Source: Thiothrix sp. (GTDB taxonomy: Bacteria; Pseudomonadota; Gammaproteobacteria; Thiotrichales; Thiotrichaceae). From it: a stretch of DNA of 64,000 nucleotides. The notes beneath the pieces are model-generated. The model did not search any database. It was not told the DNA's origin and saw only the letters and a list, made by a program, of their open reading frames with translations. The stretch lies in NCBI GenBank assembly GCA_020442915.1, contig JAGRJD010000023.1, forward strand, positions 1-64,000, given 5' to 3'. A program made the position numbers and the translations under genes. Every line of letters starts with the position of its first letter. Position 1 is the stretch's first letter. Below, in pieces: positions 16,135 through 58,514 of this stretch.

Positions 16135-17505
16135 ATGAGCGCTCCTTTCATTCCCCCTTATCCGAAACGGCACAGGTCTGATCTGAGCGTCCTGGCAACC
16201 CTGCTGAGTGCGCGCCGCGATCTGCTGTCGTTCTGGAGCGAGGATTCTTTTCGTTACCAGTTCATGCGCCGCAGAATGTTCAACCGCAGCATTTTCGTGG
16301 CCAATACCCCCGAGCTGGTCAAGTACGTTTTTGTGACCCGCAAGGACAATTACGAAAGCAAAAGCCCACAGATGCGCAAGGCGCTGGAGCCTTTGCTGGG
16401 CGATGGCCTGTTTATCAGCGACGGGGAAACATGGAAGAACCGTCGTCAGTTACAGAACGGCCTGTTTGACAATGCCCATATCCGTACCTACAGCCGCATC
16501 ATGAGCGCTACTGCTGCTGAAATGGCTGAGCAATGGGCCGGCCTTTCAGAAGGCAGCACCGTCGGGGTACTGGCGGAAATGGGGAAACTGACCTCGGAGA
16601 TCATCGCCCGTGCCCTGTTCGGTACCCAGCTTGGGGTGGCGAATGCCTCTGCCGTGATCAGCGCGTTTGCTGAATATCAGGCTGCCATTGAACAGATCCA
16701 TGTCAGCAATTTTCTCGGTCTTCCAGAGTGGTTGCCGGTCGGCGGCCTCAACATGGGCAAGGCCAGAAAGGCCGCAGCCCGTATTCATGCCATTGTGGAC
16801 CACATCATCGACCAGGCCGAGCATCAGCCACATGAAAATACCCTGCTGTCGGAGCTGCTGGCTGCCAACGCATCCGGACGGCGGGAGGCCATTTCGCGAG
16901 CCGGTATCCGCAATGAGCTGATCGTGCTGTTCATGGCCGGGCATGAGACCACGGCCAATGCATTATCCTGGCTCTGGTACCTGCTTTCCCAGTCTCCGGA
17001 AGCCGAGGCGAAGCTGCATGCCGAGCTGGCGCAGGTGTTGAATGGCCGTGTTCCTGATTTTGATGATGTACCGGCGCTGCCTTATACCCGTGCCGTATTT
17101 GAGGAGGCCATGCGCCTTTACCCGCCGGTGCCGATTCTGTCGCGCCAGGCGCGGGAGGATGACGTGATCCGCAAGCGCCCGGTACCGGCTGGTTCGCTCA
17201 TGCTGGTGGTTCCCTGGCTGTTGCACCGCCATCGCCTGTTCTGGGACAATCCGGATGCCTTTGTGCCGGAACGTTTTCTGGACCCCAATGCACGCCCGGA
17301 CAAGTACCTGTACCTGCCTTTCAGCGTCGGCCCCCGGGTTTGTCTGGGCAAGATGTTCGGACTGATGGAGTCTATTCTGGCGGTTGCCACCCTGGCTCAG
17401 CGCTTCCGGCTGGCCCTACCGGCGGGAACGGTTGTAACCCATGAGTGCCGGCTGACCCTGCGTCCCCGTGGCGGTTTGCCCATGCAGTTGCTGGTACGGC
17501 ATTGA
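16135..17505 (+). CDS. Cytochrome P450 (orphan)
   Basis: Soluble haem-thiolate monooxygenase of 456 residues, hydroxylating an unknown substrate. The I-helix oxygen motif is FMAGHETTANALSW, the K-helix ExxR lies in EEAMRLYPPVP, and the haem loop is LPFSVGPRVCLGKM with the ligand cysteine. No ferredoxin or reductase gene is adjacent, so the electron donor must be elsewhere. ATG 16135 follows AGGT and gives a normal N-terminus; the frame is open further upstream but that part would overlap the divergent ClC gene. The closest feel is of fatty-acid or alkane-type P450s, which is only an impression. Confidence 0.93.
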   Translation: MSAPFIPPYPKRHRSDLSVLATLLSARRDLLSFWSEDSFRYQFMRRRMFNRSIFVANTPELVKYVFVTRKDNYESKSPQMRKALEPLLGDGLFISDGETWKNRRQLQNGLFDNAHIRTYSRIMSATAAEMAEQWAGLSEGSTVGVLAEMGKLTSEIIARALFGTQLGVANASAVISAFAEYQAAIEQIHVSNFLGLPEWLPVGGLNMGKARKAAARIHAIVDHIIDQAEHQPHENTLLSELLAANASGRREAISRAGIRNELIVLFMAGHETTANALSWLWYLLSQSPEAEAKLHAELAQVLNGRVPDFDDVPALPYTRAVFEEAMRLYPPVPILSRQAREDDVIRKRPVPAGSLMLVVPWLLHRHRLFWDNPDAFVPERFLDPNARPDKYLYLPFSVGPRVCLGKMFGLMESILAVATLAQRFRLALPAGTVVTHECRLTLRPRGGLPMQLLVRH

Positions 17506-55725: not shown

Positions 55726-57126
55726 ATGTTGAGAATTTTTGCAGCGTTGCTGTTGGGGCTGGTTTTTACGCTACCGGTACAGTCCGATAACCAGAGTTAT
55801 GGACCCATTGCCGAAAATGAGACGCTCTGGGTCGTGGCAGAAAAGCTGCTGCCGGATAACGGTATTACCGTGCAACAGATGATGCTGGCCATTTACCGCA
55901 AAAATACCCACGCCTTTGCTGCCAACAACATTAATTCCCTGATGAAGGGGGCTTACCTCATTGTACCGGATGCCGCCGAGGCCAGAGAGCTGGGGCGTGT
56001 GTCGGCCAGCAAGGAAGCACAGCGTCAGTACCAGCGCTGGAAGGCGGGCAAGTACAGTACCAACAGGAATCGCGCCTTGTTGCCGGAAGGTTTTACGCCG
56101 CCTGCCACCCGGGAAACCGCCGGTTCCGGTTTGCCTGAAACGGAGCCGGATGCCGTAAAAGCTGCTGCTGTACCAGATGCTGATACTGCAGTCCCGGCTG
56201 TTCCAGCCGTTGTCGCCGCCAGACCAGCCACGGCTTCAGGTCAGGAAACCACCCTTGAAACGGTTAAGCGTCTGCGTACGGAAGTGGCGACACTTAAGGA
56301 CGAACTGGCCGCCACCAAGGCGGAAAATGAACGTTTGTTGAGTGAGCTGACCATTCTGCGGAGTGTGCAGGCAGAGGCCAGGGTCCAGCAGGCTCCGGTT
56401 GACGAGGAAATAGCCAAACAGGTGCGTCTGCTGGAGTCCGAGCTGAATGAACTGAAATCCATTCTTGGTGCAAAAGATAACCATATCAAGACCTTGCAGG
56501 CAAATCTCAAAAGTGCCAGTGAAGCCATTAAATCCCAGCATGCCGACAACATGCGTCTTTATAACCTGCTCAAACAGGTCAGCCCTTCCAGTCTTCCGAC
56601 AGAAGCGGCCCCGGATGAGGTTGTGCAGCCGCAATTGACGCTGGCTGCAGTAGAGCCGTCTCCTGCATTGTCCGATCCTGATTCACAAACCGGAACACCG
56701 GTGCAGGCACCGGAAAATCCGGCTCATGCGGCGGGTGCCGTCTGGGCGGATCAGGTCAGTCCGCAGGCCGGGAGTGACAGGGTTGCTGCCAAGCCGGAAC
56801 AGTCACAGCCAATCCGGCTCAGCCAGATAGTACCGGCTACTTCCGCTTCATCCGGTGATGGCATCATGTCATCCACGGTACAGCTTTCCATGGCTTCGGT
56901 GTCTCCGTTGGCCTGGGGTGTGGCCCTGTTATCGTTTCTGTTTGTGGTATATACAGCCTTGAAAGCATTTCTGCAGCACCGGGCGATGGTTCGTCTTGAT
57001 CTGGAAACGGCGTGGGAGCAGCAAAAACAACGTCAGGAAGCCCTGAAATCCCGTGCCCAGCAGGATATTGTGCAGGCAAAGCCGGACCTGGTTGGGCCAC
57101 ATCAGGACCCTGACTTCAATTTCTGA
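55726..57126 (+). CDS. FimV/HubP-like protein lacking the C-terminal FimV domain
   Basis: An exported inner-membrane protein of 466 residues. Signal peptide MLRIFAALLLGLVFTLPVQS. The N-terminal LysM-like FimV domain YGPIAENETLWVVAEKLLPD with MMLAIYRKNTHAFAANNINS and KGAYLIVP is clear. Then come an Ala/Pro-rich linker, a coiled coil (about 180-290), another linker and one transmembrane helix (about 390-410) with a short charged tail. Full FimV has long acidic TPR and C-terminal domains here missing. Likely a peptidoglycan-linked polar or pilus-related organiser. Confidence 0.88.
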   Translation: MLRIFAALLLGLVFTLPVQSDNQSYGPIAENETLWVVAEKLLPDNGITVQQMMLAIYRKNTHAFAANNINSLMKGAYLIVPDAAEARELGRVSASKEAQRQYQRWKAGKYSTNRNRALLPEGFTPPATRETAGSGLPETEPDAVKAAAVPDADTAVPAVPAVVAARPATASGQETTLETVKRLRTEVATLKDELAATKAENERLLSELTILRSVQAEARVQQAPVDEEIAKQVRLLESELNELKSILGAKDNHIKTLQANLKSASEAIKSQHADNMRLYNLLKQVSPSSLPTEAAPDEVVQPQLTLAAVEPSPALSDPDSQTGTPVQAPENPAHAAGAVWADQVSPQAGSDRVAAKPEQSQPIRLSQIVPATSASSGDGIMSSTVQLSMASVSPLAWGVALLSFLFVVYTALKAFLQHRAMVRLDLETAWEQQKQRQEALKSRAQQDIVQAKPDLVGPHQDPDFNF

Positions 57127-57160
57127 GTAAAACAGTATGGATTCACGTGGAACCATGGCT

Positions 57161-57404
57161 TGTGGATAACTTCGTGATTGGCAATCAGCCTGAGTTATCC
57201 TGTTTCCGGTTCAATGGCTCGTCTGCTATTTGCACCAGGGAATTTTCCATTTTTACGCTGTTTCCTGCTTGACTGGGCCTGCCCTGCTATCTTTCAGCCT
57301 TTATCCGGGGTCCCAGAAGGACAGCAAATTCCACTTTTGCATTTTTAGGTGACTGCTGGAGGGTATCTTATCAACAGTCAGCCTGTGGATAACTCTGTAG
57401 ATAA
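57161..57404. other. Cluster of DnaA boxes in a 392-bp gene-free gap
   Basis: Two perfect boxes read TGTGGATAA (57161-57169 and 57384-57392), the complement of TTATCCACA. Near matches are TTATCAACA (57368-57376) and TGTAGATAA (57396-57404). TTATCC also occurs near 57195 and 57301. The gap lies between the FimV-like gene and the kinase. It lacks the gene neighbours of oriC (dnaA, dnaN, rpmH), so it may be a DnaA-titration or regulatory locus. No other feature was seen in the gap. Confidence 0.6.
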
Positions 57405-57518
57405 TTGTTGTCGCCCCGACTCCGCTGCTATGCTTCGGCGACCATGCCTGAAAACTGCTGGAAAATCCCTGGCGCTTGCGGTACAAAGCCCCCATGCTGA
57501 ATTTTGCAGGTTTGACTC

Positions 57519-58514
57519 ATGAGATATGATGTATACGGTATCGGGAACGCGCTGGTTGACAAGGAATTCGAGGTTTCAGATGCATTTCTTGCCGAGCAGG
57601 GCATTGAAAAAGGCTTTATGACCCTGATTGACGAGGACCGGCATCATCAACTGCTGGCCGAGTTGCAAAGCCGTTTTGGCCTGAAGCAGCGCACAGGTGG
57701 CGGCTCGGCAGCCAATACCATTGTGGCTGCCAGCCAGTTCGGTGCCAGCACCTTCTATGCCTGCAAGGTGGCAGATGACGAGTTTGGTGAATTTTACCGC
57801 CAGGACCTGGAACAGGCTGGCGTTGACAACTGCCTGGAGCGGATCAATGTGGTCGGTAATACCGGCAAGTGCATGGTCATGATCACGCCGGATGCCGAGC
57901 GCACCATGAATACCTATCTGGGCATAACCACCGATTTTTCCATGGCCGAGCTGGATCTGGAGGCTCTGAAACAGGCGCGTTACCTGTATTGGGAAGGCTA
58001 TCTGGTCACTTCCGATACGTCACGGGCCGCTGTGCTGGCAGCACGCCGGTTGGCCGCCGAACAGGGTATCAAAACTGCCATGACCTTCTCTGATCCCTCC
58101 ATGGTGACTTATTTCCGGGACGGTGTGGCTGAACTGCTGGGTGATGGTGTTGATATTCTTTTCTGTAATACCGAAGAGGCACAGACTTTCACCGGGACCG
58201 ACAATCTGGATGCTGCGATAGCAGCCCTCAAACCCTGTGCTGGCAGACTGGTGATCACCCTGGGCAGTAAGGGAGCCATGGTGGTCAATGGTCAGGGACG
58301 GATCAGCATTGATCCCCATCCGGTACGGGCTATTGATACCAACGGTGCCGGTGACATGTTCGCGGGTGCCTTTCTGTATGCCATCAGTCAGGGAATGGAT
58401 GATGCCAGTGCAGGTCGACTTGCCAGTCTGGCTGCCAGCCGCATTGTTTCTGTTTATGGTACTCGGCTGAGCCGTGCGGTACATGCTGAACTGTTGTCCG
58501 CTATTCAGGGATGA
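57519..58514 (+). CDS. PfkB-family kinase, probable adenosine kinase
   Basis: Ribokinase-fold enzyme of 331 residues, phosphorylating adenosine or a related sugar/nucleoside with ATP. YGIGNALVDKEFEV opens the fold, RTGGGSAANTIVAASQFGAS is the substrate Gly-Gly region, VVGNTGKCMVMITPDAERTM the hinge and AIDTNGAGDMFAGAFLYAI the catalytic-Asp motif (DTNGAGD). It is close to the AdoK group. The start ATG 57519 has no strong site. It is transcribed towards a leftward methyltransferase. Confidence 0.92.
   Translation: MRYDVYGIGNALVDKEFEVSDAFLAEQGIEKGFMTLIDEDRHHQLLAELQSRFGLKQRTGGGSAANTIVAASQFGASTFYACKVADDEFGEFYRQDLEQAGVDNCLERINVVGNTGKCMVMITPDAERTMNTYLGITTDFSMAELDLEALKQARYLYWEGYLVTSDTSRAAVLAARRLAAEQGIKTAMTFSDPSMVTYFRDGVAELLGDGVDILFCNTEEAQTFTGTDNLDAAIAALKPCAGRLVITLGSKGAMVVNGQGRISIDPHPVRAIDTNGAGDMFAGAFLYAISQGMDDASAGRLASLAASRIVSVYGTRLSRAVHAELLSAIQG

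Follow-up and report, generated by a model that had tools for sequence, protein, structure and literature searches.

Three DnaA boxes in the intergenic gap upstream of a PfkB-family kinase gene of Thiothrix sp. form an element whose box positions, orientation and spacing are conserved among Thiothrix-type genomes. It is absent from the other genera sampled, and its order of boxes matches that of the E. coli datA locus. By analogy, the chances are about even that this is a conserved origin-proximal site working like datA; the claim is one of likeness in action, and not that the element is datA. As such, it may be part of the system that times chromosome copying in Thiothrix-type bacteria.

Organisation of the box cluster

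The window, meaning the whole 64-kb stretch of DNA analysed, is contig C182 of a draft genome (G000; 4.08 Mb in 196 contigs). The element lies in a 392-bp gap (57127..57518) between two open reading frames, encoding a FimV-core (FimV/HubP family) protein on the left (55726..57126, plus strand) and the PfkB-family kinase on the right (57519..58514, plus strand). Boxes A (57161..57169) and B (57384..57392) are both perfect TTATCCACA sequences on the minus strand, separated by a spacer at 57170..57383. Box C (57396..57404, minus strand) is a one-mismatch box, TTATCTACA, that stands head to tail with B at a step of 12 bp, so that upstream of the kinase all three boxes are in head-to-tail order on the minus strand. 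Another one-mismatch box, TTATCAACA (57368..57376), lies on the plus strand, head to head with B; it is not conserved and is probably incidental. The positions of the two perfect and two one-mismatch boxes and the length of the gap, as given in the preliminary description, are confirmed. The gap has no Rfam match, no terminator was found inside it, and no plasmid match was found.

The perfect box had also been described as rare by chance; as a count, the excess is modest. The window contains two perfect boxes, A and B, where 0.29 are expected, but 4 of 100 shuffles of the window also yield two perfect boxes anywhere, and genome-wide there is no enrichment (4.08 Mb hold 14 perfect boxes and 12 matches to the reversed pattern). 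One-mismatch boxes are not rare: at up to one mismatch the window has 10 matches, with 9.2 expected. Since perfect boxes are not enriched genome-wide, the signal lies in their clustering and conservation and not in their count. Elsewhere in the same genome, on contig C98 (L120), two perfect boxes at 16999 and 17110 stand in opposite orientation, 111 bp apart.

Conservation among relatives

Among the 63 genomes of the family sample, 54 yielded the kinase. Genera g1, g2 and g4 are taken to be Thiothrix-type on the basis that the kinase in the window is closest to Thiothrix and Thiotrichaceae records (up to 70% identity). All 26 genomes of these genera, together with 15 loci from five other genera of the family, were covered by a spacing-free scan of the DNA upstream of the kinase, over up to 1400 bp (in G072 only 346 bp, as the contig ends there). 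Two perfect minus-strand boxes 213–229 bp apart, corresponding to A and B, are present in 23 of the 26 Thiothrix-type genomes (8/9 in g1, 14/16 in g2 and 1/1 in g4) and at none of the 15 other loci. In G072 the element is cut by the contig end, with boxes B and C kept, while G007 and G066 lack the element. The step from A to B is 223–229 bp in 21 genomes, 214 bp in G073 and 213 bp in G001; the last value is taken from the last two boxes, with an extra perfect box lying upstream.

A stricter three-box pattern has a single match per genome in 22 of the 63 family genomes, with no match for the reversed control, and in 3 of 369 genomes class-wide, all three from this family. It demands perfect A and B boxes at a step of 209–239 bp, so the invariance of A and B among its matches holds by construction; the spacing-free count is the unbiased figure for conservation. 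Box C has one or two mismatches in all 22 elements found by the pattern, which itself fixes part of C, and keeps its 12-bp step from B. In G005, boxes A and B are present and the pattern failed at C. In related kinase loci of other gammaproteobacteria or other phyla, no perfect box occurs up to 800 bp upstream at the 64 loci covered (L029–L092, of 80).

The element keeps its boxes and the length of the spacer while the spacer sequence is randomised: the global identity of the spacers to that of the window is 0.52–0.64, and means for shuffles of the same spacers are 0.55–0.59. Strict helical phasing of the boxes is unsupported, as steps of 223–229 bp span more than half a turn. A-tracts and T-tracts recur above shuffle level at fixed places in the spacers of relatives, about 82–90 bp from A and 39 bp before B; these are possibly bending sequences.

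Chance clustering is ruled out by the specificity of the pattern, the spacing-free conservation and the divergence of the spacer. The earlier suggestion that the cluster is functional is borne out by its retention across the Thiothrix-type genomes: the boxes are real and, judging by their conservation, functional.

Relation to the neighbouring genes

The element stands directly upstream of the kinase in 23/23 genomes that have it, with left neighbours that vary. Besides the FimV-core protein of the window, to which similar proteins were recognised by eye elsewhere, these include a divergent heptosyltransferase-like open reading frame (G011 and several g2 genomes) and, in G004, a hydrolase-like one (both named by eye from translations). 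Between box C and the start codon, a promoter-like motif is conserved (57458..57487, plus strand; CTGGAAAA ... GGTACAAA), with near-invariant columns in a 13-sequence alignment that suggest a promoter function. The motif and the constant neighbour both favour an operator, at which DnaA bound at A and at B/C would loop the DNA and repress or time the kinase or a divergent left-hand gene. The distances fit this less well. From B to the kinase start they range from 61 to 428 bp in 21 genomes (SD 74 bp, n=21), whereas the A–B step varies little (SD 4.2 bp, n=22, within pattern bounds of 209–239 bp); the geometry is thus fixed inside the element. Moreover, kinase orthologues occur at 15 other family loci without such boxes. 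DnaA control of the kinase gene, as proposed in the preliminary description, is possible in view of the constant adjacency, but the internal geometry makes an operator a rather unlikely account of the element.

Position relative to dnaA and the origin

Of the 20 full-element genomes in which dnaA was looked for, 12 carry it on the same contig as the element, and in 12/12 of these the two are 12.6–158 kb apart; nine of the 12 shared contigs are of approximately chromosome size (for that of G069, only >2.4 Mb is certain). In eight genomes, the window's own included, element and dnaA are on different contigs. In G066, which lacks the element, the kinase is still 132 kb from dnaA, so proximity to the origin may be inherited gene order. 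In G020, also without the element, kinase and dnaA are 2.0 Mb apart. These distances qualify the initial view that the cluster lies away from an oriC-like neighbourhood. It stands for the flanking genes, as neither the FimV-core gene nor the kinase gene is usual at origins; it does not stand for chromosomal location in the relatives.

The gap between dnaA and dnaN is the likely oriC. In 12/12 Thiothrix-type genomes examined, it is 201–244 bp long, has a GC content of 0.34–0.41 and contains 2–9 boxes at recurring positions. In the window's genome it is found at about 26627–26827 of contig C172 (L119), which groups dnaA, dnaN, a RecF-type protein, the RNase P protein and YidC. In three g7 genomes the dnaA–dnaN gap is 26–30 bp long and has no box; in these the origin should be elsewhere.

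Because of the box array between dnaA and dnaN, the element is judged very unlikely to serve as the replication origin or as a second origin, an arrangement in which dnaA would lie elsewhere, as it does in E. coli. GC skew, which had been proposed as a check, was followed over 400 kb in five relatives (G065 and G074–G077) by changepoint and cumulative minimum; the outcome is mixed. The changepoint falls at the element in two of the five, G074 and G075, where the strongest mean shift in 400 kb is ≤0.2 kb from the element; the elements of these two are near-identical. It falls at dnaA in one, G065, where both shift and minimum are found there, and misses both sites in G076 and G077. In both G065 and G074, no more than 2.6 kb separates the cumulative minimum from dnaA (2.6 kb in G074), which for G074 speaks against an origin at the element. 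No skew switch occurs at 57 kb in the window.

Proximity to the origin would also suit passive titration, in which strong boxes store DnaA and no ATP is hydrolysed; for E. coli, strong boxes close to the origin have been described as favouring titration (PMC12371093). Storage alone needs neither a fixed A–B length nor a single orientation of the boxes, and purely passive titration is considered unlikely. Among the three roles first put forward for the cluster (titration, reactivation and control of the kinase), a titration or datA-type site nevertheless gives the best fit.

Proposed mode of action

The mechanisms of datA and DARS are known mainly from E. coli. If the element works like datA, DnaA would bind strongly to box B and cooperatively to box C, head to tail. 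DnaA on box A, about 223 bp away in the same orientation, would join the B/C complex as the spacer bends or loops. So assembled, the complex would take up DnaA and probably promote hydrolysis of the ATP bound to it, and this would occur shortly after copying of the origin and the element, so that re-initiation is limited. DnaA binding, loop formation, ATP hydrolysis and the effect on initiation are all predictions from the likeness to datA.

The IHF consensus is found at up to one mismatch in 9 of 23 spacers, versus 6.5 in shuffles, which is no enrichment. At two mismatches, the best positional bin holds 7 of 20 spacers, versus a shuffle maximum of 6, and there is no clear fixed place. The spacer thus appears to be without a conserved consensus IHF site, although a degenerate one may be present. 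A more specific proposal is put forward tentatively, as somewhat doubtful: in this gammaproteobacterial lineage, which is unlike the enterics, the element would be a DnaA-inactivating site of datA type that has a fixed spacing of its own and lacks a recognisable IHF site; the loop would then be closed by DnaA itself or by a bending protein other than IHF.

The window's genome contains an IHF-beta match over the cut-off and a second DnaA-family match that is consistent with Hda. With the DARS core described below, these make an E. coli-style DnaA cycle plausible in this genome. If the proposal is correct, the element and the DARS core by priA would together switch DnaA on and off in a complete cycle like that of E. 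coli, a cycle that would be either very old or separately evolved. The presence of a datA-like box order alongside a canonical DARS core makes it possible to ask whether switching of DnaA between ATP- and ADP-bound forms is general in gammaproteobacteria. A spacer that is kept in length and randomised in sequence also amounts to a natural experiment on the requirements of the element.

Comparison with known systems

Minimal E. coli datA is 183 bp long and comprises strong boxes 2 and 3, the weak box 7 and one IHF site; its essential boxes all point in one direction, and the intervals between them matter for function (PMC5742627). In E. coli K-12, TTGTAAACA stands 12 bp ahead of box 2, and counting from it through box 3 gives a span of exactly 183 bp. 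As this span matches the published length, we infer that TTGTAAACA is box 7. The yjeV promoter has been described as partly overlapping box 7 (PMC10950094), which is not reconciled with this assignment.

On this basis, box A is the counterpart of datA box 3, box B of box 2 and box C of box 7. On the minus strand, the window reads TTATCTACA-GAG-TTATCCACA ... TTATCCACA, and E. coli datA reads TTGTAAACA-GAG-TTATCCACA ... TTATTCACA. In both, a weak box is followed after 3 bp by a perfect box and, beyond a long spacer, by a strong box, all in one direction. The two strong boxes share their orientation (in the element, A and B are both perfect and on the minus strand), the weak box stands head to tail with one of them at a 12-bp step, and GAG between the paired boxes is common to both. 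Both sites are intergenic and on the origin side of the chromosome, and in the element the strong-box interval is fixed, within 213–229 bp in 23/23 cases. The differences are that this interval is 162 bp in E. coli, that the element has no conserved IHF consensus between its strong boxes, and that it adjoins a kinase gene, whereas E. coli datA lies beside the glyVXY tRNA genes. Likeness in action, namely IHF-stimulated hydrolysis of DnaA-bound ATP and repression of initiation, is putative for the element.

In 9 of 369 genomes of the class, in other families (L314–L322), boxes stand in datA-like order with a spacing like that of E. coli; these sites may be datA counterparts or oriC. Among open-access papers, no title concerning Thiothrix and DnaA points to an element of this kind, and no title in the literature on datA, DARS and gammaproteobacteria points to datA outside enterics. 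The text of PMC7174414 contains no Thiothrix-type names.

DARS elements, which reactivate DnaA, offer a second comparison. In the E. coli DARS1 and DARS2 cores, box I is opposite to boxes II and III and the steps are 14 and 12 bp; the same spacing and opposite box I are published (PMC5742627). Seen in the window alone, the boxes at 57368 (plus), 57384 (minus) and 57396 (minus) mimic this orientation and the 12-bp step between the last two, and a DARS reading was attractive. The first step is 16 bp and not 14, and among 22 elements only that of the window has, in the 23 bp upstream of B, a box on the plus strand with at most one mismatch. An exact core, with steps of 14 and 12 bp, is located elsewhere in the genome, at 2659–2693 of contig C12 (L128), directly upstream of priA. 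This core pattern occurs once in 26 of the 63 family genomes, with 0 control matches, and beside priA in 19 of the 26; those 19 are all the g1 and g2 matches. The reading of the element as a reactivating site, one of those in the preliminary description, was dropped as the plus-strand box is not conserved, and it must be regarded as extremely improbable.

With oriC, the element shares an intergenic location and a clustering of strong DnaA boxes; it has only three boxes in one direction, and the dnaA–dnaN gap fits oriC better. The DnaA-box clusters of Bacillus subtilis and Streptomyces also lie outside oriC and resemble the element in kind; they repress untimely initiation and have been named as analogous to datA (PMC5742627).
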